From the IMG/VR virus record IMGVR_UViG_3300042516_001797, positions 1 through 41,063 of that record: a stretch of 41,063 nucleotides of DNA. One strand, 5' to 3'. This DNA comes from a virus. Position numbers and translations under genes: made by a program. Under the pieces are notes generated by a model that was not told the origin of the DNA, ran no database searches, and saw nothing but the letters and a program-made list of their open reading frames with translations. This document shows, piece by piece, positions 1 to 35,363 of the stretch. The stretch's first letter is position 1. Every line of letters begins with the position of its first letter.

Positions 1-3000
1 CATTGATCAAATCTAATATCACCGGATTTTATAGAACTAACATACGATGATGTTGTTGCAAATGATGCAGAACCGTTTAATGATCCCGTGAATGATCCTG
101 TATATGAACCAGTGTATGAACCAGTGAAAGAACCAGTGAAAGAACCAGTGAAAGAACCAGTGTATGAACCAGTGAAAGAACCAGTGAAAGAACCAGATGT
201 TCCGTTTAAATCCAACCAATTAGAACCGTTCCAAACATACATAGATCCAGATGTGGTGTTGTAGTACATAGAACCTGTGGATAAACCTACACTTCCACTT
301 ATACTAGCAGTTGGTGCATTTGCAGATGGAAATGTACCAACTGAATAAGCAAATGTATTCATAGAAGATTCACATGGATTAGGTCCATATCCACCATTCA
401 TTGTCCACATGGTGTATTGTGATATTACCTCTGCACAGTCACAGCAATCCAAAGGAGTTGGTGTTATCCCAGAGGTTCCATTTGTTCCAGATGTCCCATT
501 AACACCATTAGTTCCAGATGTTCCATTAGCACCATTAGTTCCAGAAGTTCCACTTGCACCAGATGCCCCATTTGTTCCAGATGTTCCGTTTGTTCCAGAT
601 GTTCCATCAGTTCCACTGGTTCCACTTGCACCAGATGCCCCATTGGTTCCAGAGGTTCCATTAGTTCCAGATGTTCCATTTGTCCCATTGGTTCCAGATG
701 TTCCATTGGTTCCAGATGTTCCATCAGTTCCATCAGTTCCATTTGTCCCATTGGTTCCAGATGTTCCATTAGTTCCATTGGTTCCAGATGTTCCATTTGT
801 CCCATTGGTTCCAGATGTTCCATTTGTCCCATTGGTTCCAGATGTTCCATTTGTCCCATTGGTTCCAGATGTTCCATTTGTCCCATTGGTTCCAGATGTT
901 CCGCTTGTTCCCGATGTTCCAGCTCCTGTTGTTGATGCTGTTAATACAAAACCATTAGAATCAAATGCCAGATAACCAACTACTGTTCCTGAAAATTTTC
1001 CAGATGAATTATAGTTTGGAATTTGTAATTGTCCATTTGAATGATTTATAGCAAAATCAAAAGCAGTCGATGTAGTGTTATTTCCTTTTAAAATTCTGAA
1101 TTGGTCTTGGTAGTTATCTATCATAGATGCGGTATTATATCCTGTTCCGGATTGTAATACTAACTGCCCACCTTCAGTTGTTCCTCTTGATCCTAAAAAT
1201 AAATTTGCCTCATTGGATGTAGATGTTGTGCCAATGCCAACTGCAATAGCAACTGAATCATTAGATTGTGATACTGTTAGATATGTGGATGCAGTTGCAG
1301 CGTTTGTTGTGCCATCACTAAATAATACCCTTAAATTTCCAGGATTATTTATTGTATTGAATCCAATTCCAGAAGTTCCACTTGTCCCATTAGTTCCGTT
1401 AGTACCGGATGTACCATTAACACCATTAGTGCCAGAAGTTCCGTTTGTGCCGGATGTCCCATTTGTTCCATTAGTGCCGGATGTCCCATTAACACCATTA
1501 GTTCCAGATGTTCCATTTGTTCCAGAAGTACCAGATGTTCCATTTGTTCCAGAAGTACCAGAAGTACCAGATGTTCCACTTGCTCCATTAGTACCAGAAG
1601 TTCCGCTTGTACCAGAAGTACCTAACCCACCACCTCCGGTTCCAGATGTTCCACTTGTACCGGATGTTCCACCACCACCTGTTCCAGATGTTCCGCCATT
1701 TATTATAGCATTTTGAATTACTATTTGACACCCATCCCATTTGATATAAGACTCGCCACAAGTACCGGCATCACATCCAGCTCCCCCACTACCTCCACTG
1801 CCAAATGTAGGATTGTATGAACCGCTATATCCTAATAAAAATGATGAAGAAGGACCAATTAAATTTAAACTAAAATTAGGTGGTGTAGTTCCAAAATTTA
1901 ATAAAGATCCACACTCATTTATCATATTGACATTTGTTTGTGAATATGTACCACTTGCCAGATTATATGGATTTCCTGTATTCAGTCCCCATCCAAAATT
2001 TGTAGAAGTATTTGGATTATTTATTGCATTTTGAATACCTTGATACAGATATGATTGTATTGCAGATCCAGATGTAAGTAGACCCGATGAAGTCATCTGC
2101 ATATTAGCATATAACTGAACACCACTTGATGTATATGTTGATAGAAATGTTGAACCAGTTATTATATTGTTGCTACCAAAAATGTATTGATTACCACCTT
2201 CAAAAAATACATTATTTACAGTAGAATCCACATTCGATTGTTTTAAAGAATTATTAAAGAACTGTAATTTGAACTCTAAGAACTCATTTCTATGTTCATT
2301 TTTTATAGGAACATATAACTTTGTTCTATCAAAAGTATATCCAAATTGTTTATCACTTTCTATTCTTATATTTGATACAGCACAATCAGACCTCATTAAG
2401 AATCGCAGTACACCTGTACCATTCTTTGTAACAGGAATTGATAGAGTGTAGTCCTTTTCAACTATTTGTCTATCAGTTCCGACTGGAACGGATCCCAAAT
2501 ACTTTCCGTAATCACTATTATTTACAAATGATGATCCAGAAATGTACACATCTATCTTTTTACCTCTTAAATCTGATTTTGGGTTTTGTAAAAAGTAGTC
2601 AAATTTTAATACATATTCAGTATCTTTGTAAAATTTAGTAGCAACACTTGATGTCTGTTCTAAAACTATTTCTTGTGATCCAGACATTGTTGCCGATGGT
2701 ATATGTTGAATACCTGTTCCAATGTTACTGTATGAACTTGTGATTAGAAGGGTTGATGGTGCGCCATTGTATTGAATTGCCTTCCAATAATCTAATGAAT
2801 TTAATGATGAAGTATATGAAACACCTGCACTATTTACTGTTATATTTTTATCAAAAACACCGAATGGGTGATCTAAAAATTTTGAACCAGTATCAGCCAA
2901 ATAATTTGTATTTACAATATTTCCATCATATAGTAATTCATAGGATGAACTTGGTTTTAATGCACTCCTTGCAAATACTTTAACTCTCGAAGCATTTCCA

Positions 3001-3896
3001 ACAGATGGATCTAAATCTGTTATTTCTATTTCTGCATAAGTTTTAATATTTTGTGTAATCAAACTCTTTTTGGGTTTTTCGTAGTAATTAAGAATATATG
3101 GTTGATTATAGACATATCTTAATCTACGAGCAACATCATCAGATCCAGTGACATACAATGCCTCTGATAAGATTATTTCAGTTGGTTTTTCTACACCAAC
3201 TATACTTGCAGTATATGAAAATGATTTATATGGTAGGTCAGGAGTTCTATTAGATGAAATACTTGGAAATGTTATTATTCCGTCTAATTGATCATTTGTA
3301 AATGTAGTTGATGTTGATATAAGTCTCGGTATTCTATCTGGACGATAAACATATATTCCAGTTCCCGCTGTTGTGCGTTGTTTTGAAATATCAAATTTTT
3401 CTTCTATAATAGAAAATTTACGCTCTTTAACTGTAAACGATGGTGGTTTTGTATAAATTATTTCAGTATCATTCTGTTTTGTTGGATCAACTTTTATAGA
3501 ATGTGTATACTTGTAATTGTGTTCTTTTACCTTCGATGGTAGTATTAGATTATTATTTTTATCTCTTTTTATAGTACAAAGTATTGTTAGTGTACAATTA
3601 CCAGGTTTTGTATTTTGATAAACATAAACTGCAATTACCTTTGTCCCATCCCCTTCCTCATAATCAAGTAGTTCGTGATAAATTGGATTTCCAGTAGAAT
3701 CTAATATCTCAATATCGATTGGATAATCTTTTGATACAGCATTTTTATTCGGAGTAATCTTAAAATAATTTTTACCGGATGTAAATAAATTTGGTATAAA
3801 ACTTACATTCAACAAATCAACAGAATTGTTATTAACATCCGTATAATTTGTTTGTACTAAATTGTAATTTCGTTTAAGTCTTTTTTTTTCTACCAT
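1..3896 (-). CDS. Giant collagen-like tail fibre protein (3' end outside window)
   Basis: An open reading frame runs from an ATG at 3896 to the window edge (about 1298 codons, no stop), so the C-terminus is missing. The first ~700 residues are a non-repetitive, Thr/Ile-rich, probably beta-rich region. Gly-X-Y collagen-like tracts (GTSGTNGTS type) follow at about residues 730-845 and 985-1145, separated by a globular segment. Near the window edge are GS(F/Y)T tetrapeptide repeats at about residues 1235-1270. Collagen-like tracts and GSFT-type repeats are known in trimeric tail fibres of tailed phages, so a host-binding fibre is inferred; no receptor-binding domain is visible. The ATG lies one base after the stop of the Mre11-Rad50 gene, suggesting coupled translation. 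The plus-strand reading frames full of VPxVP are shadows of the Gly repeats. Confidence 0.85.
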   Translation of the reverse strand, partial: MVEKKRLKRNYNLVQTNYTDVNNNSVDLLNVSFIPNLFTSGKNYFKITPNKNAVSKDYPIDIEILDSTGNPIYHELLDYEEGDGTKVIAVYVYQNTKPGNCTLTILCTIKRDKNNNLILPSKVKEHNYKYTHSIKVDPTKQNDTEIIYTKPPSFTVKERKFSIIEEKFDISKQRTTAGTGIYVYRPDRIPRLISTSTTFTNDQLDGIITFPSISSNRTPDLPYKSFSYTASIVGVEKPTEIILSEALYVTGSDDVARRLRYVYNQPYILNYYEKPKKSLITQNIKTYAEIEITDLDPSVGNASRVKVFARSALKPSSSYELLYDGNIVNTNYLADTGSKFLDHPFGVFDKNITVNSAGVSYTSSLNSLDYWKAIQYNGAPSTLLITSSYSNIGTGIQHIPSATMSGSQEIVLEQTSSVATKFYKDTEYVLKFDYFLQNPKSDLRGKKIDVYISGSSFVNNSDYGKYLGSVPVGTDRQIVEKDYTLSIPVTKNGTGVLRFLMRSDCAVSNIRIESDKQFGYTFDRTKLYVPIKNEHRNEFLEFKLQFFNNSLKQSNVDSTVNNVFFEGGNQYIFGSNNIITGSTFLSTYTSSGVQLYANMQMTSSGLLTSGSAIQSYLYQGIQNAINNPNTSTNFGWGLNTGNPYNLASGTYSQTNVNMINECGSLLNFGTTPPNFSLNLIGPSSSFLLGYSGSYNPTFGSGGSGGAGCDAGTCGESYIKWDGCQIVIQNAIINGGTSGTGGGGTSGTSGTSGTGGGGLGTSGTSGTSGTNGASGTSGTSGTSGTNGTSGTSGTNGTSGTNGVNGTSGTNGTNGTSGTNGTSGTNGVNGTSGTNGTNGTSGTSGIGFNTINNPGNLRVLFSDGTTNAATASTYLTVSQSNDSVAIAVGIGTTSTSNEANLFLGSRGTTEGGQLVLQSGTGYNTASMIDNYQDQFRILKGNNTTSTAFDFAINHSNGQLQIPNYNSSGKFSGTVVGYLAFDSNGFVLTASTTGAGTSGTSGTSGTNGTNGTSGTNGTNGTSGTNGTNGTSGTNGTNGTSGTNGTNGTSGTNGTNGTDGTDGTSGTNGTSGTNGTNGTSGTNGTSGTNGASGASGTSGTDGTSGTNGTSGTNGASGASGTSGTNGANGTSGTNGVNGTSGTNGTSGITPTPLDCCDCAEVISQYTMWTMNGGYGPNPCESSMNTFAYSVGTFPSANAPTASISGSVGLSTGSMYYNTTSGSMYVWNGSNWLDLNGTSGSFTGSFTGSYTGSFTGSFTGSFTGSYTGSYTGSFTGSLNGSASFATTSSYVSSIKSGDIRFDQ
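106..189 (-). repeat. 12-bp tandem repeat encoding GS(F/Y)T
   Basis: Seven consecutive 12-bp units alternate between gaaccagtgaaa and gaaccagtgtat, encoding SFTG or SYTG on the minus strand. Less regular copies continue to about position 70 (GSFTGSLNGSA). The tetrapeptide period matches repeats known from phage fibre-like proteins. Confidence 0.85.
781..888 (-). repeat. 27-bp perfect tandem repeat, 4 copies
   Basis: Four identical 27-bp units start at 781, 808, 835 and 862. Each encodes NGTNGTSGT on the minus strand, inside the longer degenerate Gly-X-Y tract (about 465-930). Because the unit is a multiple of 3, changes in copy number keep the frame and only change fibre length. Confidence 0.9.
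1362..1700 (-). repeat. Second collagen-like Gly-X-Y tract
   Basis: This is a degenerate 9-bp-periodic tract encoding GTSGTNGTS-type triplets in the fibre frame, upstream of the globular segment at about 935-1360. It also contains Gly-rich stretches (GTSGGGG-like) near 1625-1690. Triplets are less uniform at DNA level than in the 781-888 tract, which suggests an older expansion. Confidence 0.8.
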
Positions 3897-3897
3897 C

Positions 3898-6800
3898 CTA
3901 ATTCTCTATTTTAGAAAATCCGTTTTCTTTTTTAATTTCAATATGATTATCGACCATATCACGAACACTATCTATATGTGATATGAGTATAACAAACTCA
4001 AATTGTGTTTTCAAATAATCCATGAACAGAGAGAAGTTTGCCATAATTGTTGGATCAAGAACACCCAATCCTTCATCTATCGCAATAAAGTTTGGTCTTG
4101 GTAGAGACGAAACTTGTATCAATGCTGTTCTTATCGCAAGTGAAGAAATAAATTTCTCCATACCACTTGACAATTCTAAATTCCAAAAACGGTCATTATC
4201 ATATACAATATAAGTATTGATACTCTTACCATCTGTGTCAAAAAGAACTTGGAAATCAACAATGTTTGCCAATATATTATTTGTTTCTTCTTGAATACTT
4301 GGCAAAGCATTACTAATCAATTCATATGGAACACCGTTTCTATTTACTGCCTTCAAATAATAATCGTATGCTTCATATTCGTTTTCGAGGTCTTTCAACT
4401 TTTGTATCGAAACTTCACATTCGTTTATTATTTTCTCACTAACCTTTACATTTCCACTATATTCCAAAATACTTTCATCAATCTTTTTAAGTTCAATCTT
4501 CAATGAATTATTTTTTTCATTTTCTAATTCATCAATCTCTGATTGTATTTTATTATTTTGATTGATTATATCTTCATTTTCTTTTAACTTTTCAATCTGA
4601 CTATCAATTAGAGATAGTTCTTCACTAATTTTTGTAATATCTTCCTTTACCGAAAATACATTTTTTTCTATCGAATAAATCTGTTTTTCATATTTGAAAG
4701 CACTATTTTCAAGACTATGTAATTTTTCCAATTCAGAATATACTGACGAATTATCTGAAAATTCTTTTTCAAGTGATTTTATTTCAAAAATCAATTCATC
4801 CCTATCTTGTTCATAACCCCAAATAAGAGATTTTGCCTTTTCTGCATCTTTAACAAACACATTATTGACACAGAATTGACAGTTTGGATCATACTCGTGG
4901 TCTTTCAAATTATCAATTTTATCTTGACAATGTTGGACTTTTAACTTTACACTTCTTAAATCAGCTTCAAATTGTGTAAGTTTGTTTCGGACATCATCAA
5001 CTCGTTCTTTATCCTTAACAAGTTTTTCTCTATCAAATTCCTTTGCCAATTCATTATATTTGTTGTATGATGATTTGGCGTCCGATAATTCATCTTCAAA
5101 TGATAACAATTCATTCGTTAAATCATTAAGTTTCCTATCTAATAAATATCTCTTATCTAATAATGATTGAACAGATTTTGAAGAAAAATTGTCATCAATA
5201 GGTATAAGTTTCTTATTTAGTTCCGATATTTCATCCGTTAATTTCTCTATTTTCTTTTCAATATATCCTTTCTGATCTGTTGTTTCTTCTAACAAAAGAG
5301 TATTTGTCCTATGAATACCATTTGCATCGGAAAGTTTAGTGGAATAATCTTGTTTCTTAAACTCCTTGACCAATGCTTGTAACCCCTTTACTTCATCAGT
5401 TGCAATAGTATTCAATTCCTCAAATAGATTTAGGTCAAAGAATTGTGCCAATAAATCCTTTCTATCCTTTTGTGCCTTATCAACAAAGTTTGTATTATTA
5501 CCTTGTAATGACATTGCAGTTAAAACAAAGTCATCGTAAGTTCCAATATATTTACGAATTGCATAATTTGTTGTGTCTCTATCTTCACCATTTAGAGAAA
5601 CCAAATCACCGTTTTCTTCGTACCAAAAATCTACATTAACTTTTACATTTCCTTTCTTTTCTTTTGTTGCAACTCTTTTAATGTAATAATTTTTATCACC
5701 AATCATAAAGTGTAGTTTACATTGGAAGTTTTCTTTCTTATTATTTAGAACTTGTGCCGCCTTAAATGTTCTTGAACACTTATCGAATAGACAGAACATA
5801 ATAGCATCAAGTAGTGATGACTTACCACTTGCATTTGGTGCAAACAATCCATATATCCCATTCATATTTGAAAAATCAATACGATTTCCTTTACCATAGG
5901 AAAACATATTATCAAATTCAAATGATATTGGTGTCCATACAAGATTACGAACAACATCACTTTCTGATAGTTTTGTATTTACATTACGATTTATATTTCG
6001 TATCTTTTCAAGTATTTCATCTGATACTGAAAACTTGTCACTTACATAATCGGTTATCAATTTGTTTTGATATTCAACATCACGAATTTTACCGATTGGA
6101 TTTACTTTTGTTTGAACATTTCCATTGCTAGAACCAACAAGATGTTGTGTTCTAATATCTATAACATTTGCCATAGATTTCAAATCGGTCATTATCTGAT
6201 TGACTTCGGAATGTGGTGTGTTTGTTATTCTCAAACGAATCGAATTGTATTTTGTAAATTTTGTTGGTAGTTTTTTTATCTTTCCGTTTTCAACATCAAT
6301 CGTATGATATGACCAATCATTTTCAATTTCAATGAATTTTGATTTCTTATTTTTAATATCCCACTCAATTATACCGTGAGTTAATCCCTCACCGTAGTTT
6401 TGTTGAATCAGAGAACCTGCATAAGCAAACTTTCCATCTACATCAAGATATTGAAACTTGTGTATATCACCGAATAAACCATAATCAAAACCATCAAACA
6501 TTTCAACCTTCACTTGATTATGTTTCATAAGAACACCAGCATCGGTTGCCGCTCTATCAACAGGACCATGATATAAAACTATTTTTGTTTTATTACCACT
6601 ATTAACATCTTTTGCCAAAATGAAATTTTCAGGATTCTCATAAACAGAGTTTACAACGAAATCAACATTTTCAAGTTCATATACACCAGTTTCTTTCAAA
6701 TAAAAAAGATTATTGAAATCATCATTGATAAGAGAAACTATCGGTGAAAGTGCATCCATTCTACTCATGTTGTTAAGGTTACAATCGTGATTACCTGCAA

Positions 6801-7080
6801 TCAAAATCGTTGGAGCAATTCTTGAAAGTGTATCTAAAAATTCAGTTACCATTGCAACTAATTCTGGCGTCATATCTGTTTTTGCGTGAACAATATCACC
6901 TGCAAGATATATTATTGTATTTTTATTTTCTTCAACTTTTTTTCTACAAACATCATATACTTTTTGGAATACACTACGGTATTCTTCATGTCTTTTAAGA
7001 TTACGAATATGAACATCAGCAATATGAATAATTGTATCTACTTTAGCAAGTGATCCAACCCACAATGTTTCTTTACGCAT
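3898..7080 (-). CDS. Single-chain Mre11-Rad50 (gp47-gp46 / SbcD-SbcC) nuclease-ATPase
   Basis: A 1060-aa protein joins an Mre11/SbcD phosphodiesterase to a Rad50/SbcC ATPase. The N-terminal half has the metal-binding motifs D22-x-H24, G61-D62, G96-N-H98-D99, then YHGPVD and GDIHK near residue 200. Rad50 features follow: Walker A APNASGKSS with K420, long heptad-rich coiled coils at about 565-900 interrupted by a CxxC zinc hook (C734, C737), a signature-like ELSSGME near 970, and Walker B FIAIDEG with D1002 and E1003. In T4 these are two genes (47 and 46); here one frame with no internal stop encodes both. The likely role is end resection in recombination-dependent replication and host DNA degradation. 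It overlaps the primase gene by 8 bp, with an AAGGAT site upstream of the ATG. Confidence 0.95.
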   Translation of the reverse strand: MRKETLWVGSLAKVDTIIHIADVHIRNLKRHEEYRSVFQKVYDVCRKKVEENKNTIIYLAGDIVHAKTDMTPELVAMVTEFLDTLSRIAPTILIAGNHDCNLNNMSRMDALSPIVSLINDDFNNLFYLKETGVYELENVDFVVNSVYENPENFILAKDVNSGNKTKIVLYHGPVDRAATDAGVLMKHNQVKVEMFDGFDYGLFGDIHKFQYLDVDGKFAYAGSLIQQNYGEGLTHGIIEWDIKNKKSKFIEIENDWSYHTIDVENGKIKKLPTKFTKYNSIRLRITNTPHSEVNQIMTDLKSMANVIDIRTQHLVGSSNGNVQTKVNPIGKIRDVEYQNKLITDYVSDKFSVSDEILEKIRNINRNVNTKLSESDVVRNLVWTPISFEFDNMFSYGKGNRIDFSNMNGIYGLFAPNASGKSSLLDAIMFCLFDKCSRTFKAAQVLNNKKENFQCKLHFMIGDKNYYIKRVATKEKKGNVKVNVDFWYEENGDLVSLNGEDRDTTNYAIRKYIGTYDDFVLTAMSLQGNNTNFVDKAQKDRKDLLAQFFDLNLFEELNTIATDEVKGLQALVKEFKKQDYSTKLSDANGIHRTNTLLLEETTDQKGYIEKKIEKLTDEISELNKKLIPIDDNFSSKSVQSLLDKRYLLDRKLNDLTNELLSFEDELSDAKSSYNKYNELAKEFDREKLVKDKERVDDVRNKLTQFEADLRSVKLKVQHCQDKIDNLKDHEYDPNCQFCVNNVFVKDAEKAKSLIWGYEQDRDELIFEIKSLEKEFSDNSSVYSELEKLHSLENSAFKYEKQIYSIEKNVFSVKEDITKISEELSLIDSQIEKLKENEDIINQNNKIQSEIDELENEKNNSLKIELKKIDESILEYSGNVKVSEKIINECEVSIQKLKDLENEYEAYDYYLKAVNRNGVPYELISNALPSIQEETNNILANIVDFQVLFDTDGKSINTYIVYDNDRFWNLELSSGMEKFISSLAIRTALIQVSSLPRPNFIAIDEGLGVLDPTIMANFSLFMDYLKTQFEFVILISHIDSVRDMVDNHIEIKKENGFSKIEN

Positions 7081-8089: not shown

Positions 8090-8490
8090 CACTCTTTTAA
8101 CCAATCTTCCGGTATTTCTTTTTTTGCCCACATCCAACCCTTTTTATCACAATATTGGGCATAAGTTGTTTTACTTCCTTTGTATAATTTTGCATTTGGA
8201 TTTTGGAATACAAAACGAATATCTATTCCAGGATATTGTTCAAATATAAGGTCAAACTTAGACCTATCAACCTTTACCCATCTACCCTTTGTTTCAATAT
8301 ACATTTTTTCACCAGATGTTTTTGTTAGAACAAAATCTGGCGTATAATTGTGTTTGGTTTCAGGTTGTATGTAGGATATTTTTTCGGTTTCATAACCAAA
8401 TGATTTATTTGCTTCTTTTAGAAGATTATTCATATCATCTTCTAACCCACTACGAAAACCATGCTTTATTGCAACTTGATTTCTTTTCAT
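8083..8490 (-). CDS. T7 gp3-like endonuclease I (Holliday junction resolvase)
   Basis: This 135-aa protein resembles phage T7 endonuclease I over nearly its full length: FRSGLED near the N-terminus, YTPDF, IETKGRW, a D-I-R-F-V-F strand, and YKGSKTTYAQYCDKKGW followed by a C-terminal P-x-x-W-L-K. The catalytic set known for this PD-(D/E)xK family is present: E17, D52, E66 and K68. The enzyme resolves four-way and branched DNA before packaging. In T4 that role belongs to the unrelated endonuclease VII (gp49), so this is a non-orthologous replacement in a T4-like background. The start codon overlaps the upstream stop (TAATG), with an AAGG 11 bases upstream, and the gene leads into the primase/Mre11-Rad50 block. 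Confidence 0.93.
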   Translation of the reverse strand: MKRNQVAIKHGFRSGLEDDMNNLLKEANKSFGYETEKISYIQPETKHNYTPDFVLTKTSGEKMYIETKGRWVKVDRSKFDLIFEQYPGIDIRFVFQNPNAKLYKGSKTTYAQYCDKKGWMWAKKEIPEDWLKECL

Positions 8491-10226
8491 TACATATCAA
8501 ACCTTACAATGACATTCATATCAACATCGTCTCTTTTTTCCAAAGGATTTGCCAATTTAGCAACTGCCAATAACTCTCTGTCATCATTGTATAATCCAAT
8601 AGTAGTCATATATGGATTGAAATAAGAACTTGTAACATAATCTTCCAACATAAAACTACCTTTATCTTTATCCTTTAATACGGAAGGATTTTGTGTAAAA
8701 TTAAATTCATTTTTACGAATTTTACAAATAATTTCATGTTCGTGAATAGTCGTTGTTCCCCTAAACTTTCCGTAGAATCCATCTGTTAATTCATTATAGT
8801 CAAAACTTCCGGTTCTACCCAATAATGAATTTTCATACTTTGGTCTTGGATCAGAAACTACAACCATGCCTGTTTTATAGAAAACATTTCCAACTCTTGA
8901 AGTTTGATATGCATATCCATTTTGTAAACTATTATTTCTCAAATAAGATATTTCACTTGAAGTTAGTCCCTTATTGTATATTCTAATTTCATCTAATGAA
9001 CCAGAGAAACATTTAGTATTAGTTCCATCATCTGCAATAAAAAATTTATTATCATTCATTACATTTTGAACTATTAGTTTATTTGTAGATGAATTAAGAG
9101 TACCATCCACCCAAATTTGATAAACACTTCCTGTTTTTTGACAAACAATATGATGCCATGATTCAGTTGTTAATTGACTCGATGTTACTTCAGCAACTTC
9201 AAGTTCAGAACTTTGTTTAAACATTATAGTATTTGGGTTTGCTGATGTTTGATTTGTTACACAAATGTCAAACGGATATTGTTCTTGTCTTCTTATCGCC
9301 TCTACTATATTTCCCAATTCTAATGAATCTTCCGTTTTATAGTATACATCTTGAATAGTTTTTTTAGAGAATAAACTATTGTTAGATGAAGATACAAATG
9401 ATTGCGATGTTGGTAAATTTATCCAAAAACTAAATGCAAAATTTTTCGATTTATTAAAATTAAACAACTCACTATTTCTAACAGATAAGTAAGAACCATC
9501 AAAACCTGCACAAACACCAGATGATTGACTTGTATCGGTAGTTGGTATTCCAGGATAGTAAGTTATCTTCTTATGATTCTTTATATCAACTAAATTCTTA
9601 TATGCAGATGTATCTAACACATAGTTTAATTTTTTATTTCTATAATTGTATTCTCTATACTTTTCGTTAAATCCCAAATACATCATTAAGTAACCATCAC
9701 CAACAAATTTACTTTCATCGAATGAGGTATCTATCAAATTACCATAACCATCATCCTTCATGGTGTAATTGTAGGATGCAGTTGGACTAACATTGTTTAT
9801 TTCAAATGTTTTTTTACGAATACCCTCACCAAATAAATTCATTGGTATAACAAACATAGAACTTGATTGCCAAAGATATGTTACATTACTATCATCGGTA
9901 ATAGTTCCTGGTATTTTTTCTTTGTTGTATTCTGTGTAATAGTTGTGGTCTAAATAGTACCACAAAAGTTTTGGATCTAAACTTTGTGTTGTAAATACTC
10001 TTTCATATAAAGATGAAGATAGATTTGCAACATTTCCTATGTATTTATGATTTTCTGCATACAATGCACGATAAGTATTCAGTCCATAATTTTTGTAAAA
10101 AAAATAAACGGAAGAATCGGTTGTAAATTCCCAAAGTTTATTTGCTTCAAATGATTTAACTGTATATTCACCAGCCTTTAATCGTTTCCATGCAAGACTT
10201 ATATTATTTCTGAATTGGAATGACAT
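8490..10226 (-). CDS. LamG-like virion protein with the shared array C-terminus
   Basis: A 578-aa structural-type protein. Residues ~240-435 look like a LamG/concanavalin-like jelly roll: FAFSFWINLPTS, ESWHHIVCQKTGSVYQIWVDG and FSGSLDEIRIYNKGLTSSEI are the characteristic strands. The last ~85 residues carry the ending shared by five genes here: KIRKNEFNFTQNPS, then YMTTIGLYNDDRELLAVAKLANPLEK and a final basic/hydrophobic strand. The middle part of the array module is missing, so this member is a chimera that keeps only the tail. LamG folds often bind carbohydrate, so a surface-binding or decoration role is inferred. The gene starts one base after the preceding stop. Confidence 0.75.
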   Translation of the reverse strand: MSFQFRNNISLAWKRLKAGEYTVKSFEANKLWEFTTDSSVYFFYKNYGLNTYRALYAENHKYIGNVANLSSSLYERVFTTQSLDPKLLWYYLDHNYYTEYNKEKIPGTITDDSNVTYLWQSSSMFVIPMNLFGEGIRKKTFEINNVSPTASYNYTMKDDGYGNLIDTSFDESKFVGDGYLMMYLGFNEKYREYNYRNKKLNYVLDTSAYKNLVDIKNHKKITYYPGIPTTDTSQSSGVCAGFDGSYLSVRNSELFNFNKSKNFAFSFWINLPTSQSFVSSSNNSLFSKKTIQDVYYKTEDSLELGNIVEAIRRQEQYPFDICVTNQTSANPNTIMFKQSSELEVAEVTSSQLTTESWHHIVCQKTGSVYQIWVDGTLNSSTNKLIVQNVMNDNKFFIADDGTNTKCFSGSLDEIRIYNKGLTSSEISYLRNNSLQNGYAYQTSRVGNVFYKTGMVVVSDPRPKYENSLLGRTGSFDYNELTDGFYGKFRGTTTIHEHEIICKIRKNEFNFTQNPSVLKDKDKGSFMLEDYVTSSYFNPYMTTIGLYNDDRELLAVAKLANPLEKRDDVDMNVIVRFDM

Positions 10227-10227
10227 T

Positions 10228-11511
10228 TTAATTTAACCTCACTCTAACTTGAAAGATTACTTCATCGCCTGATGTTTTTAGTATAGGATTTTTTAATTTA
10301 CCAACCGCAATAAGTTGTCTCTTTTTGTTGTATAACCCTATGGTCGTTATGTATGACTTTGGATTATCTACCATAGAAATATACTTTAACTTTCCGTAAC
10401 TTCCAGATGTATATGTTATATTTGAACTATAATTGAAATTATTGGGTGAAACTCTACAAAAATATGTTTCATAAACTTTTCGTTCAGTTGATCTACCAAA
10501 CCAAGATCCAGTAGATGTTCTTAACGAATGTGTTGCATAAGTTAATGGGGAACATGAAGAACTTATTGATAAAAATAAACGATAAGCATTGTAACTTTCA
10601 GTCGGAGCAGTTGATGTTTGTAATGAACAAGATTGATCCATAACAGCACCATCTAAAACAACAAGGCCTTTTTTTGGAAAAATTACTCCCCAAGCATCAT
10701 CAGTATATTCACCATAAATTCCGTCTTGTAAAGATCCAGAAACCAAGTAATAGTAATCTTTTAGTTCTTCTGTTTGTTTTACACTTTCATTTATATCTTG
10801 ACTTTCATCTATAAGTGTGTAATACTTTCCAAAATTTTGTATTTGTTCCGGTGTTAGTATAGTTCCACTTGATGTTAGAAAACTTGAATAAGGTGCAAGA
10901 GTCATTTGGAAGTTACCAGCATCTATTGCATCCTTGAATATATCTCTATCAAACTGTATAGTGTAGAAATAATCACCGTTTTTATCATTTTTAAATTTGA
11001 ATTTTCCATCTGTTGTATCGAAACATTCAAGCATATATTTTCTATACATAGATTTTGCAGGAAGAAATTGTGTTTTTCCTTCAATATATGATGAACCAGA
11101 ACCACTTATATGTGCATAAGCTATATCAAATTGACGATATGAATTGTGAGAATCCTCTTCTTTATCGAAAACCGGTAGGTAATAACTTTTATGTTGTATT
11201 TCTACTGAACCAGTGTGAAATGTTTTTAACTTTTCGCTCGTGTTACAACTAAACAACCCATTGGTTATATGTTTACGGTATGGACCAATGTAATCTGTTT
11301 CTGTTTGTATTTTTTTGTAAATAAAACTTGGTAAATCTTCTAAACTCCAACCATCATTTATGAAAGTTATCAATGGTCTTGGGGATTTTGGAGTAGTTTC
11401 GTTTACTATTATTATTTTATCAGTTGGCGGAAATTGTTCATCTATTTGAAACTGCACATATTGTTTTAGCAATTCCAATACAAACTTATTTATTTGTAAA
11501 GATCCTATCAT
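10228..11511 (-). CDS. Paralogous tail/virion protein, array member (427 aa)
   Basis: This protein has the full ~350-residue module of the array. The block order is a Tyr-rich YYLPVF segment, FDIAYAHISGSGSSY, a YRKYML helix, an FYTIQFDRDIFKDAIDAGNFQ strand pair, TLIDESQD, YYLVSGSLQDGIY, GVIFPKKGLVVLDG, YFCRVSPNNFNYSSN, and the ending YITTIGLYNKKRQLIAVGKLKNP. The first ~100 residues are specific to this member. No enzymatic motif is visible and the function is not established. It lies between a LamG-containing relative and a small unknown gene. A structural role in the baseplate, neck or fibre attachment is inferred from the neighbours and the beta-rich Ser/Tyr/Gly composition. Confidence 0.75.
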   Translation of the reverse strand: MIGSLQINKFVLELLKQYVQFQIDEQFPPTDKIIIVNETTPKSPRPLITFINDGWSLEDLPSFIYKKIQTETDYIGPYRKHITNGLFSCNTSEKLKTFHTGSVEIQHKSYYLPVFDKEEDSHNSYRQFDIAYAHISGSGSSYIEGKTQFLPAKSMYRKYMLECFDTTDGKFKFKNDKNGDYFYTIQFDRDIFKDAIDAGNFQMTLAPYSSFLTSSGTILTPEQIQNFGKYYTLIDESQDINESVKQTEELKDYYYLVSGSLQDGIYGEYTDDAWGVIFPKKGLVVLDGAVMDQSCSLQTSTAPTESYNAYRLFLSISSSCSPLTYATHSLRTSTGSWFGRSTERKVYETYFCRVSPNNFNYSSNITYTSGSYGKLKYISMVDNPKSYITTIGLYNKKRQLIAVGKLKNPILKTSGDEVIFQVRVRLN

Positions 11512-11523
11512 TTAAAACCAACC

Positions 11524-11910
11524 TTAAATGTTATTAACAAAATTTTTATCAAAAAAACTATCTGGAACATCCTTCAAAGTTCTTCTGATTTCAGCAACAA
11601 TGTCCGTATTAGTTTTATCCAGTGATATTAACGCATCATCTAATGCCTTTAACAACAATTCACCATCTATTTCACTTGCAACACGAAATTTATTATCTCG
11701 TATTGTGTCTAAGAATATCTGTGCAGAATTTGTCACTACTATCGAAAATATTGCATTCGTAACATTTGGATCTGGATCATTTATTAGAAAAAAATCTTCT
11801 TCTGTCAATGTTCCAGGATCTAATGTTTGTTGTAAATATGCCGGAAATGTTGGAACTCTTGATACTACTTTTGTTGCTAGTGTTGATATTATCTGTTCTC
11901 TTGTATACAT
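11524..11910 (-). CDS. Small acidic protein of unknown function in the array
   Basis: This 128-aa protein is not recognised. It is soluble, mostly helical by composition and mildly acidic, with no signal peptide or membrane segment. It starts MYTREQIISTLATKVV and ends in DVPDSFFDKNFVNNI. It begins one base after the stop of the 1194-aa array protein and ends 12 bp before the 427-aa member, so it is co-transcribed with both. A small helical partner between large structural paralogues could be a chaperone, adaptor or minor virion component; the sequence does not decide. Confidence 0.7.
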   Translation of the reverse strand: MYTREQIISTLATKVVSRVPTFPAYLQQTLDPGTLTEEDFFLINDPDPNVTNAIFSIVVTNSAQIFLDTIRDNKFRVASEIDGELLLKALDDALISLDKTNTDIVAEIRRTLKDVPDSFFDKNFVNNI

Positions 11911-11911
11911 A

Positions 11912-14900
11912 TTACCAACTCAATCTTATTTTGATTAGAACATCATTTTGTGGTGATTTCTGTATTGGTTTACTTAACTTAGCAACAGCAAGTAATTCTT
12001 TTTTCTCGTTATACAAACCAACACTTGTTATGTAAGTAATTGGATTTTGTATAAAACACTCATATTTGAGATAACCCTTTTTGTCTCCACTATCAATAAC
12101 AAAAGTTGGATTTGTTGTATAGTTTGCCTCGGTAGTCGGAACACGAACAAAGTAATGATTTGTTGTTTTTCTTCTAACATTTCTGGCTTTCATAGGATAA
12201 CCAAGAGCAGCCGCACCACTTATAGATGTATGTAACTTCCAAGCATTATCACCAGCAATATTACTGCCGCTAACACTATTGAAATTCAAATAATCATTCA
12301 ATCGTGCACCATTCAGAACAATAACGCCTAAGTTTGGATATACTTTACCATAAACTTCATATTGAGATCCTGTTTGAGCAGGATATATTCCTTCCGAAAG
12401 ACTACCACTTACTATCTCATAATAACTATATGGATCCTCAACACAGAACGATGTTTGGTTAGCATCGCCTGAATTATCTATCAATGAAAGTATTTTAGCA
12501 CTTGTACCCGCAACTTTTACATTACTACCAGTATGAACATTATTTGCATAGTGACTACCACTTAATTGAGCAAGATTTATTTGGAAATTACCTAAATCAA
12601 GTTTATCGCTCAATCCATCTCTATAAAAGTTTATTACATAAATATCCTTTGGATTCCACAAAGAAGATGTTTCTTGTGCCTCTTGAATCAAAGGAACATT
12701 ATAGAATGTAAAATACTTATCAGGCGCTTCAAGTGCCAGCAATCTATATTGTGAATATATTGCCCTTGCAGGACTATCAGCTGCATCATATCCAGATGCA
12801 AGTGAACCAGAACCTTCTTGATGTCCATAAGCAACTGCATAGTATGATTTTTTACCACAACCTTCACAATCTGTTATATCATAATAATATGATTTAGATG
12901 CAGTTGGTTGAGTTGAACTTGTCAAATAACAATCTAATGATTGTGATGTATTGAATAAACCACGAATCAAATCTGTTTTTACACCAGTTAATACATCTGC
13001 ACCAAAAAGGAATGGGTGGTGTATTCTCACCGGTCTGTTTTCACAATCTTCCTTTGGTCTTGTTTCACCAACACTCTGTCCTTCTGCAATTCCATAAGGA
13101 TTTGGATTAGGAACTGGATAAAATTTCTTATTTAATTTTTTAGTAGCTGGAATTTCAGTTACTTTACCAGTAACAGGATTCTTATATGTTATCGATGGGT
13201 AATTTAGATAATGTGTTAATATCTGTATTTCAATACAACCACATGGATTCGTTGGATCAACTATCCACTCTTCTTCTTGACTTTCAGTTGCACAACCTAC
13301 ACGCTCTTCATCTAACTGAATTGAATCAAGCGAAGTAATTTGTCCTACGCCAAAATTATCAATATATGGGGCTTCAACTAAATTCCAATAATAAAATTGA
13401 CCATAATTTGGCGAATTAGGATTTGTTTCTAATTGTATATTAGAACGAGAAGTTATTCCACCAAATTGTATAGACCTTAGTATCAAATCTAAGGCATAAG
13501 GTCCTCTTAATTCTGCACGCTCTTGTTCGGATGCATTTGCGGGATATTCTAATTTATCACCATTGTTTATATTTTTGGTAGTTACCAAATCTTTTGCAAT
13601 ATAAATTATTCTCTTTCCGGCACATAATACATCGAAGAATATTTTCTTTCTTCTTTTTAAGAATGTTTTGAATACTGTTTCTGTTCCAGTAAAACATGGA
13701 TCATTATCCAACGGAACTCTGTTTACATTTATAGGTCCAATATTTCTTGTTACAAAATTTGGACTATTTCTATTAAATTTAGCAGCACCAACCACCTCAA
13801 TTACTTCACCATTTGATGTAGTATTTACAGTTGATGTTAAATTTAAAAATGTTTGAGATTGTTGATCAAATGGATTCAAGTCATCTGCAATATCTTGCCA
13901 ATCAACTCCATCCCTTAAACCCATTAGCCAGTTAAATGATGGAAATGTTTCTCCTGTATTTGGATTAACAAAGTTTTGATATGGTAGTTCACAGTCTGCA
14001 ACAAAATTTCCATTGAAATCCACATTACCACATCCAGTCTGTCCACCACAACCAGCTTCAACAGCAGCAATAAATCTTCCTTGTGGTAATTTACTTATAT
14101 CAAATGGATAATTTGTTGTCTCAAATCCGTTAAATGCTGAAATATTGGTTATTAAATCAGCAGCACCTTTTATGTATTTTTTTTCTTGTGTCTGTTGATT
14201 ATATGCACCGACTATTATCGCCTCTAATTTTCCAAGCCAATTACCATTAGTATTTGTTAATAAGATTGTTTCAGAAGTTGTATAGAATCCATTAGGACCC
14301 CTTTCTTGCAACAAACCATTAAGAGTAAAACCAACAGCACCAGGTTGAATTATATTAGCAGGTGGTTCTTGGCCGAAAGTAGGACATATTGAATTTATAT
14401 CCTTTACAAGTGTTGCTTTCTTACCGACCTTTGAATTATATCCACTTTCAGCTTCTATTCTATCATTTATATGATCCAATAGATTTCTATTTACAACATT
14501 TCCATTTTCTAAAACAGGAATTTGTGAAAATCTTAAAATAGAGTTTACTTGTTCTACCATTCCTGGAACATCATAGTAATATTTGTATATTAACTTATCA
14601 TTTCCATTTGAACATTTTTCAACTTTATATGCAACTTCAGCAGTTGTTAATTTCTTCCAACCACCTGTTACAGAGTATCTTTGATTCGCAGTTATGTATG
14701 GTGCAATGTTAGTATTACAACATCTATAAACATTTAACCACAATTCACATGGTGGTTCTATTAGATAATCCTTTCCCTTTACTTTTACTTGTATTTTATT
14801 ACCAAGTGATTGATTTCCAGGAACAGATCTTTCTTGAACATCAAAATAAAAATAACATTCTGGTTGAAATGTAAGTCCACCTACTCCAGAAGTAGAACCA

Positions 14901-15496
14901 GTTGATAAATTTCCTGTTAATGAACTTGAACTAACACCACCTGCACCACCTTGACCACCATTCATTTGTGGAACAGCTGGAACTAATATAGATTGTTGAA
15001 CAGTTTGTTGTCTTCCAACACTAACTAATGAACGAAGTCTTCTATAAATTATCGCAGAGTTTGTTGATGCAGATGACCAATTTCCTAAATTATTGGAAGA
15101 ATCTATGGAACCATCGTTATCAGTATCGATATAGTTATACCAATTAGGATTTCTATTAGATATTAAATCAGCAGGTGTTCCACCTAAAATATTATTAAAT
15201 TCTTCTATCCAATCAGAATATTGTTTTGTTGCACCACCATTTGTATCACGAAGATATTGTGCAAATATGTTGTATATTATTCTAAACTCATTTAAGGTAT
15301 TTCTTTGTAGTTGAAGATTATCAGCAATAGTATCATTTCCACTTGATCTCCAATCTGCAATTTGAGCATCTAATGAATCTATCTCCGCATCGATAGCAGA
15401 AACTTGTAATTCTAATGTAGATAATTGTCTATTTTGAACAGCAGTATTTGCCGCATTCAATACGCTTAAAATTATATCGCTAAATAAATCTTCCAT
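11912..15496 (-). CDS. Large multidomain virion protein ending in the array module (1194 aa)
   Basis: Residues ~1-90 form a helical, heptad-like N-terminus (LSTLELQVSAIDAEIDSLDAQIADW). A DTDNDGSID loop at 124-132 matches the DxDxDGxxD calcium-binding loop of EF-hand and dockerin-type sites. A Gly/Ser-rich linker follows (~175-205), then a long Cys-containing region (~205-840) with no recognised fold. Residues ~840-1194 are the complete shared module: YYYDITDCEGCG, YYAVAYGHQEGSGS, YVINFYRDGLSDKLDLGNFQ, ILSLIDNSGD, YYEIVSGSLSEGIY, HYFVRVP and YITSVGLYNEKKELLAVAKL. A structural tail role is inferred from context and size. Its last coding bases share a 23-nt identical stretch with the 372-aa paralogue. 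An AAGG site precedes the ATG. Confidence 0.75.
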   Translation of the reverse strand: MEDLFSDIILSVLNAANTAVQNRQLSTLELQVSAIDAEIDSLDAQIADWRSSGNDTIADNLQLQRNTLNEFRIIYNIFAQYLRDTNGGATKQYSDWIEEFNNILGGTPADLISNRNPNWYNYIDTDNDGSIDSSNNLGNWSSASTNSAIIYRRLRSLVSVGRQQTVQQSILVPAVPQMNGGQGGAGGVSSSSLTGNLSTGSTSGVGGLTFQPECYFYFDVQERSVPGNQSLGNKIQVKVKGKDYLIEPPCELWLNVYRCCNTNIAPYITANQRYSVTGGWKKLTTAEVAYKVEKCSNGNDKLIYKYYYDVPGMVEQVNSILRFSQIPVLENGNVVNRNLLDHINDRIEAESGYNSKVGKKATLVKDINSICPTFGQEPPANIIQPGAVGFTLNGLLQERGPNGFYTTSETILLTNTNGNWLGKLEAIIVGAYNQQTQEKKYIKGAADLITNISAFNGFETTNYPFDISKLPQGRFIAAVEAGCGGQTGCGNVDFNGNFVADCELPYQNFVNPNTGETFPSFNWLMGLRDGVDWQDIADDLNPFDQQSQTFLNLTSTVNTTSNGEVIEVVGAAKFNRNSPNFVTRNIGPINVNRVPLDNDPCFTGTETVFKTFLKRRKKIFFDVLCAGKRIIYIAKDLVTTKNINNGDKLEYPANASEQERAELRGPYALDLILRSIQFGGITSRSNIQLETNPNSPNYGQFYYWNLVEAPYIDNFGVGQITSLDSIQLDEERVGCATESQEEEWIVDPTNPCGCIEIQILTHYLNYPSITYKNPVTGKVTEIPATKKLNKKFYPVPNPNPYGIAEGQSVGETRPKEDCENRPVRIHHPFLFGADVLTGVKTDLIRGLFNTSQSLDCYLTSSTQPTASKSYYYDITDCEGCGKKSYYAVAYGHQEGSGSLASGYDAADSPARAIYSQYRLLALEAPDKYFTFYNVPLIQEAQETSSLWNPKDIYVINFYRDGLSDKLDLGNFQINLAQLSGSHYANNVHTGSNVKVAGTSAKILSLIDNSGDANQTSFCVEDPYSYYEIVSGSLSEGIYPAQTGSQYEVYGKVYPNLGVIVLNGARLNDYLNFNSVSGSNIAGDNAWKLHTSISGAAALGYPMKARNVRRKTTNHYFVRVPTTEANYTTNPTFVIDSGDKKGYLKYECFIQNPITYITSVGLYNEKKELLAVAKLSKPIQKSPQNDVLIKIRLSW

Positions 15497-15504
15497 GTAT
15501 TACC

Positions 15505-16557
15505 TTAATAATCGAGTTTAACTTTAATAACAACTTCTCTATCAAATGATTTTTCTATCGGCTGACTTAATTTTGCAACAGCCAATAAGTTTTGAAAATC
15601 ATCATATAAACCAACGGTAGTAACATACACCTTTGGATCATCATACATTCTTGTGTGTTTCAACTGATTTGATCCTGTAAAGAAACTTGGATTGTTTGTA
15701 AAGTTAAACTCATTATTAAGTAATCTTACAAAATAATAAGAAGATGCAACAACTTCACTTGTTGAACCTTGGAATGAATGAGATACTGGATTTAATGACA
15801 TTGCACCACTTATCGATGTTACCAATTTGAATGCAGAATTGTCACCACTACCAGTTGCAGGACTACGCTTAGTTGCAAATGAAGCAGATGCATCTAATGC
15901 CCTACCATTCAGAACAATAACACCAAAATCAGGATAATATAATCCCCAAGGAGTAGTATCTGCTGTATAGATTCCATTATTTATACTTCCACTTCTAATA
16001 TAATACACTCTACCGCCTTGCGTTGCAAGTTCAGTAGTAGGTGCACCTGAATCGTCAATCAATGTAAATACTTTATTTGAGGAGGATATTGCAACACCAG
16101 ACGAAGACATTTCAGCTAATGTTAATTGCCATGTATTGGTGTTCATTCTATCTTTAAATCTTGCACGGTTTACATTTACTACATAGATGTATTCTGATGT
16201 TTCATCATTTGAAAACTTGAATAAATTTTGACCTGCATTCAAAAGTAATTGTTTATATTGTGCATATACTGCCTTTGTTGGATAATCATATATGTTCATA
16301 CCAAATGAACCGGTAGAAGATCCACTACCAGCCGCATCACCATAAGCAATAGCAAACTGTGATTCTGCACCTTGTAAATTTGATTGACTATTAAATATTT
16401 CATAATAGTATCTTTTTTCATTATCAGATTGTGCAGAACTAGAATGCATTTGAGATAGTGCCGCCTGTTGTTTTGACCATAACGGAGCAGTTATTACTTC
16501 TCTTTGTGAGGTTTGAACTGAATCTGATGTAAACTTTTTAAAAGAAAAAACACTCAT
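15505..16557 (-). CDS. Paralogous tail/virion protein, array member (350 aa)
   Basis: This member is almost only the shared module. A ~35-residue N-terminus (ending TAPLWSKQQAALSQMH) leads into RYYYEIFNSQSNLQGAESQ, FAIAYGDAAGSGS, YIYVVNVNRARFKDRMNTNTWQ, TLIDDSGAP, VYYIRSGSINNGIY, GVIVLNGRALD, SYYFVRLLNNEFNFTNNPS and the ending YVTTVGLYDDFQNLLAVAKLSQPIEK. It has no signal peptide, membrane segment or catalytic motif. Of all members it best defines the domain boundaries. The ATG lies four bases after the preceding stop with only a weak GAG upstream, suggesting translational coupling. The function is unknown; a virion structural role is inferred. Confidence 0.78.
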   Translation of the reverse strand: MSVFSFKKFTSDSVQTSQREVITAPLWSKQQAALSQMHSSSAQSDNEKRYYYEIFNSQSNLQGAESQFAIAYGDAAGSGSSTGSFGMNIYDYPTKAVYAQYKQLLLNAGQNLFKFSNDETSEYIYVVNVNRARFKDRMNTNTWQLTLAEMSSSGVAISSSNKVFTLIDDSGAPTTELATQGGRVYYIRSGSINNGIYTADTTPWGLYYPDFGVIVLNGRALDASASFATKRSPATGSGDNSAFKLVTSISGAMSLNPVSHSFQGSTSEVVASSYYFVRLLNNEFNFTNNPSFFTGSNQLKHTRMYDDPKVYVTTVGLYDDFQNLLAVAKLSQPIEKSFDREVVIKVKLDY

Positions 16558-16561
16558 AATT

Positions 16562-17680
16562 TTAATACTCTAGGGTTACACTAATTGTTAATTCACTATT
16601 TAAGGTTTTTTTGATTGGTTTACTTAACTTAGCAACCGCCATCAAATCTCCAGAACTGTTGTATAGTCCAACAGATGTAATATAAACAACTGGTTGTGAT
16701 TCCCAAGTTGTATTTATCACTCTTCCAGATATATCATTACCATTTGCATCGGATGTTCCCTTTGAATATGCCCATGTTGGATTATTTGATGCCATTGGAC
16801 CATAAGGGACTCTTACGAAATAGAATGATTCATTCTTTATTGAAACAGACCTTGCAGTAAATCCTTTACTTGCAGTAGCGGCAGCACCACTAATAGCAGT
16901 AAATAATTTGAAAGCATTATCACCATCAATATTACTTCCAGTAACAGTATTAAATGATGCAGATAAATTTAATTTATCGGCTGATAATAGGATTGCACCC
17001 TGACTTGGGAATACGATACCGTAGCAATGTGGTGCACTTGGATTGTAGATACCACCTTCGAGTGTTCCACTAACAACATATCTTGGTTTTGCAGATACCG
17101 TATCTAATTCCAATCTATTATTGCCGTCACCGGAATCATCTATCAATGATATTATAGTTGCACCTGGTTTTACTTTAACATTACTTCCAGTATGAACATT
17201 ATTTACAACAGAACTACCACTCAATTCTGCGATGTTTATTTGGAAGTTGCCTGGATCGAGTTTATCACCAAATTTATTACGATTTATATTGATTACATAA
17301 AAATCTGTCATAGGAGTATTTGAACCAGATAATTTTAATCCCCCTTCGTCTCCATCCAAACACATCAATTTGTATTGTGAATATATTGAAGTTGAAGGTG
17401 TATCGCTTTTGTTGGCGTCACTTCCACCTGCCCATGTTGAACCTGAACCGCTTATATGTCCGTATGCAACAGAAAACATTCTTTCATCATCACATGACAA
17501 AGAAGCGGATCCCCAAACTTCATAATAATAATCTTGTGATGAAGTTGTCTGTGTAGAACTTGTAAAAAATGTCAGTAACTCGGAAGTTCCTGTGCCCCAT
17601 AACGGAGTAATAAAAGATGATGATGCAATTATAGGTTGTATTCCAAGTGGTTCTATTGCACGAAAAATTCTGTCAGCCAT
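16562..17680 (-). CDS. Paralogous tail/virion protein, array member (372 aa)
   Basis: This is the first member of the array in transcription order. A ~30-residue N-terminus with TPLWGTG, similar to the TAPLWSK of the 350-aa member, precedes the full module: DYYYEVWGS, FSVAYGHISGSGS, FYVININRNKFGDKLDPGNFQ, IISLIDDSGD, YVVSGTLEGGIY, GIVFPSQGAILL, SFYFVRVPYGPM and YITSVGLYNSSGDLMAVAKLSKPIKK. It is particularly close to the module of the 1194-aa protein (both have NVHTGSNVKV and GSNI-GDNA-KL). An AGGATATAAAATG start context gives a good ribosome site. A structural role is inferred from neighbours. Confidence 0.78.
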   Translation of the reverse strand: MADRIFRAIEPLGIQPIIASSSFITPLWGTGTSELLTFFTSSTQTTSSQDYYYEVWGSASLSCDDERMFSVAYGHISGSGSTWAGGSDANKSDTPSTSIYSQYKLMCLDGDEGGLKLSGSNTPMTDFYVININRNKFGDKLDPGNFQINIAELSGSSVVNNVHTGSNVKVKPGATIISLIDDSGDGNNRLELDTVSAKPRYVVSGTLEGGIYNPSAPHCYGIVFPSQGAILLSADKLNLSASFNTVTGSNIDGDNAFKLFTAISGAAATASKGFTARSVSIKNESFYFVRVPYGPMASNNPTWAYSKGTSDANGNDISGRVINTTWESQPVVYITSVGLYNSSGDLMAVAKLSKPIKKTLNSELTISVTLEY

Positions 17681-17711: not shown

Positions 17712-18392
17712 TTATCTAGTATATGTTACAGGAAGCACAAATCGTGAACCATATAACTCATTTGTAATAATAACTTTTGTAGATTTAGATGATCCATTGA
17801 TGATGTCTTGTATTGGTTTACCCAATAATGCAAGTCTAACAACATTTGTTTGAGCATCTACTGATGATAATCCAGAAATAGTTTTTGAATTACCAGAAAT
17901 ACTTGTTCTAACACCTGAACCTGCACCAACTGGTTGTAAATCAATATAAGTAGTATCTAAAATTGTAGCAGAGTATGTTTGACTCTGTAATTGAGTACCA
18001 CCAATTTGACCAGTATATTGAAGTGTTTCAAATTCAATAGTTGTTCCAGTTGTAGGTTGTGTTGTATAGTTTATTGTTATAGAAGTTCCACCTGGTTTAA
18101 CAAAATTGATATAAGGGATTGCTACTGTACTCTTTTCGAGTGTAATCAATTTGTATTTCATTGATTGTGTTTCGTCAGGAATTGCCTCTGTAATTGGCAT
18201 ATTTTCTATAACTGAACCGAAATAGTCACTTCCCTCTGGATGTGAAGGATTCCATAAATCGTAATCAACTTCATCATCAGACAAAGCAAATTGTGTAATA
18301 TTAAAATTACCACGGCCTTGTGCTAAAAGTTCTCGACCTTTTTTTGTAAGAATTGCGTCTACGGTAATAACGCTGTTGTTTAAATAACCCAT
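17712..18392 (-). CDS. Probable small virion structural protein (226 aa)
   Basis: The N-terminus MGYLNNSVITVDAILTKKG, followed by RELLAQGRGNFNITQFALSDDEVDY, resembles a conserved but uncharacterised phage protein found beside tail genes; this is from memory and not checked. The rest is beta-rich with Thr/Ile repeats and a C-terminal segment, VVRLALLGKPIQDIIN, that vaguely recalls the LAVAKL-KPI ending of the array proteins. It sits just before the array, after a 58-bp gap, and has a strong AGGAG site six bases before its ATG. A tail or baseplate component is inferred; no specific function is claimed. Confidence 0.7.
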   Translation of the reverse strand: MGYLNNSVITVDAILTKKGRELLAQGRGNFNITQFALSDDEVDYDLWNPSHPEGSDYFGSVIENMPITEAIPDETQSMKYKLITLEKSTVAIPYINFVKPGGTSITINYTTQPTTGTTIEFETLQYTGQIGGTQLQSQTYSATILDTTYIDLQPVGAGSGVRTSISGNSKTISGLSSVDAQTNVVRLALLGKPIQDIINGSSKSTKVIITNELYGSRFVLPVTYTR

Positions 18393-33062: not shown

Positions 33063-33080
33063 TTAAAATCTCCATAAAAA

Positions 33081-35363
<2,283 letters not shown>

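Follow-up and report, generated by a model that had tools for sequence, protein, structure and literature searches.

Five neighbouring genes on the minus strand of an IMG/VR virus fragment, from an environmental phage with a contractile tail, encode proteins, here called A to E, that by sequence comparison arose through ancient duplication of a single, previously undescribed structural protein. They are probably paralogous proteins of the baseplate periphery, in which a common module would act as a slot-specific, virion-facing mount while the attached heads project toward the cell. The window, that is, the whole 41,063-nucleotide stretch analysed (GC content 31.6%), contains one long structural operon on the minus strand, in which the five reading frames reported in the earlier note were confirmed. 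A (372 aa, 16562-17680) and B (350 aa, 15505-16557) have essentially no head, with the module at residues ~19-372 (16565-17626) and 7-350 (15508-16539), respectively. C (1,194 aa, 11912-15496) consists of a head (residues 1-832) and a C-terminal module (833-1194), D (427 aa, 10228-11511) of a 70-aa leader and a module at residues 71-425 (10237-11301), and E (578 aa, 8490-10226) of a divergent full module with a LamG domain inside.

A to D share a C-terminal module of about 350 residues, with pairwise blastp E values between 1e-41 and 1e-72: A and C match at 42% over 372 columns (5e-72), and other pairs lie at 5e-49 (A-B), 6e-43 (A-D), 2e-50 (B-D) and 2e-45 (C-D). E matches B, along its last ~150 residues, at 1e-13 over 173 columns and A at 2e-6 over the last 39. 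An HMM of the GLY end, built from the last 48 residues of A to D, scored E at 45.9 bits, compared with 0.9 bits for the next window protein and 7.9 bits for the best of 100 shuffled window proteomes. These results bear out two earlier claims, that the same block closes all five proteins and that four of them share a further module. The GLY block lies on the minus strand at 16565-16852 in A (about 96 aa, with predicted strands E277-291, E332-340, E346-358 and E364-371), 15508-15795 in B, 11915-12202 in C, 10231-10521 in D and 8493-8780 in E (hhalign P 3e-19). Across 100 diverse modules seven columns are invariant (G80, S81, Y128, G205, G221, N300 and G338, A numbering), and a profile search of the whole 41-kb record returned the five module proteins and no others.

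Protein E had been read as an N-terminal LamG head followed by the C-terminal block. Alignments with its relatives lead to a different description: E is a complete divergent module into which LamG has been inserted at the junction 172|445. Its N-part (residues 1-172; 9711-10226, minus strand), which ends ...DDGYGNLIDTSF, has its homologue in the N-part of E proteins that lack an interruption. The insert (residues 173-444; 8895-9710, minus) holds a LamG/concanavalin-like domain, matched by Pfam at residues 245-427 (8946-9494, minus; Laminin_G_3, PF13385, E 1.7e-14, 54.7 bits against a gathering cut-off of 27.6), and the C-part (residues 445-578; 8493-8894, minus), which starts VGNVFYKTGMVVVSD, matches gp105 of Flavobacterium phage immuto at 7e-22. 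This gp105 is one uninterrupted chain of 357 aa, and the same chain also matches the N-terminal half of L033-type E-like proteins (3e-10). Removal of residues 173-444 in silico extended the hhalign alignment to the A-D profile collinearly, to 176 columns (P 8.5e-20); the C-part alone gave 88 columns (P 3.1e-19) and the N-part alone aligned at the corresponding place, weakly (P 0.026), so that the case for homology between E and A-D is carried chiefly by the C-part, to which the N-part contributes a weak collinear match.

Insert boundaries and classes were defined with separate N-part and C-part profiles. Uninterrupted E relatives number 69 distinct proteins of 279-357 aa, which include, besides gp105, LR756508 (304 aa) and, on MAG contigs, proteins from Flavobacteriales (332 aa) and Winogradskyella (316 aa). 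Another 49 distinct relatives carry an insert of 265-347 aa at the exact 172|445-type junction, a count that excludes the cross-matching A-type sequences L246_4254, L061_2579, L095_2788 and L067_2788 and also L204, L258 and L289. A LamG-size insert occupies this one E junction throughout the five-gene relatives, and Pfam recognised LamG in every protein tested, namely the window E and nine relatives, one of which, L206, belongs to a two-gene array. Seven E genes are split, with about 1,000 aa of N-part and head followed in the next reading frame by a C-part of 101-110 aa. Mapped on A, the breakpoint immediately precedes strand E277-291, where the C-terminal unit of four strands begins, and in L032-L041-type phages the C-terminal GLY unit is a free-standing gene of that size. 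One split gene (L033, 11009-14095) has an E-type head with a SprB-like repeat, by a weak Pfam match; the SprB repeat family takes its name from a Bacteroidota adhesin. An alignment of the E LamG region to the module (hmm 32-357), produced by the first iterative profile, was rejected as alignment drift, and E-type rows were left out of module alignment A1.

Slot C displays, at the level of sequence, the pattern expected of a mount with variable heads: between the window and 17 relatives the module is 99-100% covered and 45-65% identical, whereas 0-75% of the head can be aligned, mostly with 22-32% identity. The C head (13001-15496, minus strand) is indeed large, though of about 830 rather than the 1,000 residues initially proposed, and comprises a helical N-terminus (residues 7-115, low-confidence model), a variable middle and a Cys-containing region at about 550-830; its structure model (pLDDT 53, pTM 0.31) is reliable for secondary structure at most. 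Nor is this head completely different from one relative to the next: some 290 module-proximal residues are conserved, with invariant Cys and Gly columns, among the 19 aligned C heads (window and 18 relatives). The N-terminal ~190 residues of C are recognisable in many relatives. Because the module-proximal residues are conserved, C is better described as a conserved stalk with a variable region than as a wholly exchangeable head. The D leader, described as short, has 70 aa in the window but its counterpart reaches 227-654 aa in several relatives. Both the partial conservation of the C head and the D heads of 69-94 aa in most relatives examined count against our preferred reading of the module as a mount for projecting heads.

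Between C and D lies a gene for a 128-aa protein (11524-11910, minus strand), with homologues in few relatives and none within the long D proteins of relatives. Its identification as a detached D head was rejected, as it has no similarity to long D heads. The gap that holds it is absent from phages with a long D head. In the 484-kb uncultured phage, an A-type gene (L225, 6151-7599) has an insertion of about 75 aa between module positions 225 and 236.

At least 594 confirmed IMG/VR loci carry the family, according to a scan that used E-type sequences. Phage records with relatives are those of Microcystis phage Mel-JY01, Flavobacterium phage immuto, Rhodothermus phage RM378 and the 484-kb uncultured phage; full-length profile matches reached 4e-46 for RM378 gp128 and 1e-82 for LR756508 and were also significant for immuto and Mel-JY01. 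The relatives may hint at Bacteroidota hosts, but Mel-JY01 is recorded from a cyanobacterium. The module was also found in four bacterial assemblies (Winogradskyella, Flavobacteriales, a Roseiflexaceae MAG and an uncultured bacterium), at least some of which are probably misbinned phage contigs. Complete distinct arrays, defined as loci that also hold a homologue of the upstream 226-aa protein and the downstream primase, contain two (n = 37), three (n = 3) or five (n = 19) module genes. RM378 has one bare module, immuto has two (gp106 and gp105) and Mel-JY01 has a five-gene set (WWT39513-39517), and gene order is the same in immuto and Mel-JY01.

In a maximum-likelihood tree of 95 modules, built with no outgroup root, each slot of the five-gene arrays forms a single clade (17/17 for each of A to D and 16/16 for E, support 98-100), and the seven labels need six changes, the minimum. 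Heads therefore vary inside slots C and D and do not move from one slot to another, which upholds the earlier idea of a common module with added domains and removes its corollary of free head exchange across the array. One clade per slot further indicates that the duplication predates this phage clade and that the slots have since shown no detectable exchange. From its wider spread and simpler proteins we infer that the two-gene form (A-type plus E-type) is ancestral, the direction of gene-number change being read from an unrooted tree. The ancestral set would have consisted of one A-type and one E-type gene, both bare modules of about 280-360 aa; in this lineage tandem duplication of the A-type gene would have produced A-B-C-D, with E carrying LamG.

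The array lies behind gp25 and gp6-like wedge genes. In transcription order, and all on the minus strand, gp25/gpW (26462-26965; PF04965, 4e-10) comes first, followed by a gp6/gpJ-like baseplate wedge gene (24580-26469; phrog_219, 5e-21), three long proteins without credible family matches, the 226-aa protein directly upstream of the array (17712-18392), the five module genes, a T7-type endonuclease I, a primase and an SbcD-SbcC fusion (3898-7080). The N-terminus of the 226-aa protein, whose homologue is one of the two markers of array completeness, has a weak P2 gpH (PF12571)-like motif in profile comparison (P 7e-5, 27 columns). The fusion, a single 1,060-aa reading frame with SbcD-like phrog_100 and SbcC-like phrog_77 matches, is predicted to be a fused palindrome-specific nuclease; Mel-JY01 has an AAA-domain gene of similar size at the corresponding position. 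The array adjoins the 226-aa tail protein, primase and SbcCD genes in immuto, Mel-JY01 and IMG/VR contigs, and primase and SbcD-like genes also lie downstream of the module genes in the 484-kb phage.

Other minus-strand genes of the window deserve mention. The reading frame at 3-3896, which runs off the left end (at least 1,298 aa), has long collagen-like GTSGTNGTSG and TGSFTGS repeats and, by these repeats, likely encodes a fibre; plus-strand 'ORFs' at 409-975 and 1213-1716 (VPDVPLVP repeats) are its antisense shadows. Neighbouring proteins of 606 and 760 aa (31242-35363) have similar leucine-rich repeats at their ends, and the second also has a GATGGTGATGG collagen-like run. A 1,251-aa tail protein (27468-31223) has glycine-rich repeats and a weak M15 peptidase match near its C-terminus. 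A UV-endonuclease UvdE gene (38696-39601; PF03851, 3e-60) sits within the structural operon, and the product of 40275-40895, judged by eye, resembles a 'major paralogous domain' (FISUMP) protein from the corresponding region of Mel-JY01.

The AlphaFold2 model of A, computed from a 100-sequence alignment (pLDDT 87.6, pTM 0.79), is a compact alpha/beta unit with a confident fold. Foldseek found no PDB match to it at E <= 0.001; the matches of notable probability, 9mt4_K (probability 0.75, E 0.62) and 9c39_K (probability 0.47, E 1.7), cover about 95 columns. By sequence 9c39_K is a Felix O1-type protein of 110 aa, and by gene order it is the neck whisker gp31 of Sf14, related to the PF23140 Gp80 fibre. 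As these Felix O1-like whisker proteins are the sole plausible PDB neighbours, A to E could be whisker-like appendages of the neck or collar, with the baseplate genes merely adjacent, and a similar motif, LWDANDKCVATGALSKP, accompanies the partial fold match. This location is nonetheless very improbable: the fold matches are not significant, profile comparison with the PF23140 Gp80/whisker family is weak (hhalign P 0.0076), and the module genes lie downstream of those for gp25, the gp6-like wedge and a 1,344-aa protein. Among predicted viral structures, the 11 significant matches to the A model are uncharacterised phage proteins, some of which carry LamG/ConA-like domains. No credible match to the module came from sequence searches of Pfam, PHROG and the PDB, whether the query was a single protein or a set of 100 members. 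The earlier note's impression of an uncharacterised family is thus correct with respect to curated families, PHROG and solved structures, and the profile search of phages and structure databases that it had put forward as a check found relatives in RM378, immuto and Mel-JY01 and no significant PDB match.

We return to the baseplate periphery as the preferred setting. There the ~350-residue module would fit every protein into the virion at a fixed position specific to its slot, and outward-reaching domains would be grafted onto it N-terminally in C and D and, in the case of LamG, into a surface loop in E; A and B, without grafts, may be spacers or partners. The grafted domains would most likely serve to contact or bind glycans or the cell surface, or to support additional fibres. 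A mount is favoured by the conservation of the module, the lack of heads in A and B, the C-terminal units that stand alone and the synteny with baseplate genes. Conservation pattern and gene context suggest that the module has an attachment role, presumably as an inward-facing anchor in mixed or homo-oligomers; A to E would reside in the virion, at the tail tip.

Against this reading, typical tail fibres attach by their N-terminus, and the end conserved here is the C-terminal one, so that the case for the proposed polarity is built on conservation alone. If the polarity were reversed, the N-terminal regions and inserts would dock to the baseplate and the C-terminal module would be an outward, fibre-like receptor-contacting or trimerising tip. 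The baseplate-attachment domain PF12571, which P2 gpH matches at 3e-57, is N-terminal in that protein, and the N-terminal ~190 residues of C and its module-proximal region could dock. Such an arrangement seems unlikely, because it would leave the module-only A and B without an anchor, conservation is far higher in the module than in the heads, and the motif GLYx(5)LxAVAKL in the C-terminal block looks like the gpH attachment domain rather than a tip (P 2.8e-6, in the GLY hairpin only, 17 columns; best P 0.023 for column-shuffled control profiles with filtered columns). Both gpH and the module have a GLYD-x-x-G-x-LxAV motif, and both are encoded after wedge genes in the operon, whereas PF12571 was not among the Pfam families of 100 module members. 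Having motif-level support only, P2 gpH and the Felix O1 whisker were not adopted as true relatives.

A to E might also be tail- or baseplate-assembly factors, or a dispensable adhesin layer, that are not permanent parts of the virion, with the heads acting during assembly. We found no proteomics in the literature on virion proteins of Mel-JY01, immuto and RM378, and no virion structure or proteomics for any family member, and the homologues of the module (RM378 gp128, immuto gp106/gp105 and Mel-JY01 WWT39513-39517) are all annotated as hypothetical, which would be compatible with such a role. The fixed slots in complete arrays, the position in the structural operon, the large beta-rich heads and the LamG and SprB-like domains, all typical of exposed virion parts, render it distinctly improbable.

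In T4, the baseplate-pin and short-tail-fibre proteins gp10, gp11 and gp12 are products of consecutive genes, share one primordial fold with loop insertions of varied size and are located at the baseplate periphery (PMC3004832). Here, too, consecutive paralogous genes lie at the baseplate operon and a core is decorated by insertions. By contrast, the module has no detectable sequence similarity to the T4 trio (no significant match to gp10, gp11 or gp12 in phmmer/hmmsearch or Foldseek against the PDB; the A model's top 50 PDB fold matches include none of the T4 baseplate proteins), occurs in up to five copies that are still recognisable by sequence and receives heads N-terminally, internally or by gene splitting. 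As no solved structure matches significantly, the T4 comparison is one of functional analogy only. The family is new, analogous to known baseplate-periphery systems and not demonstrably part of them.

The observation is stronger than the earlier note stated and its interpretation right in outline. A structural family that occurs across IMG/VR viral loci and in the cultured RM378, immuto and Mel-JY01 now has a name, boundaries and a history; in it, one mount would be arranged in two-, three- or five-copy arrays and fitted with different heads. From the insertion junctions, annotators and structural biologists can read off where the mount stops and candidate receptor-contacting domains start, and these junctions make host contact testable in phages without other tail-fibre annotation at this position. 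That domains were added in front, in a middle loop or by gene split suggests that the tail tip has a mount which can be reused for parts in contact with the cell surface. More tentatively, the family may represent an undescribed contractile-tail scaffold, with a fold unrelated to the T4 gp10 and P2 types, which is present in two to five non-interchangeable copies and accepts domains N-terminally, at an internal loop or across a gene split; if so, its five-copy form would be a composite tail tip built from one fold.
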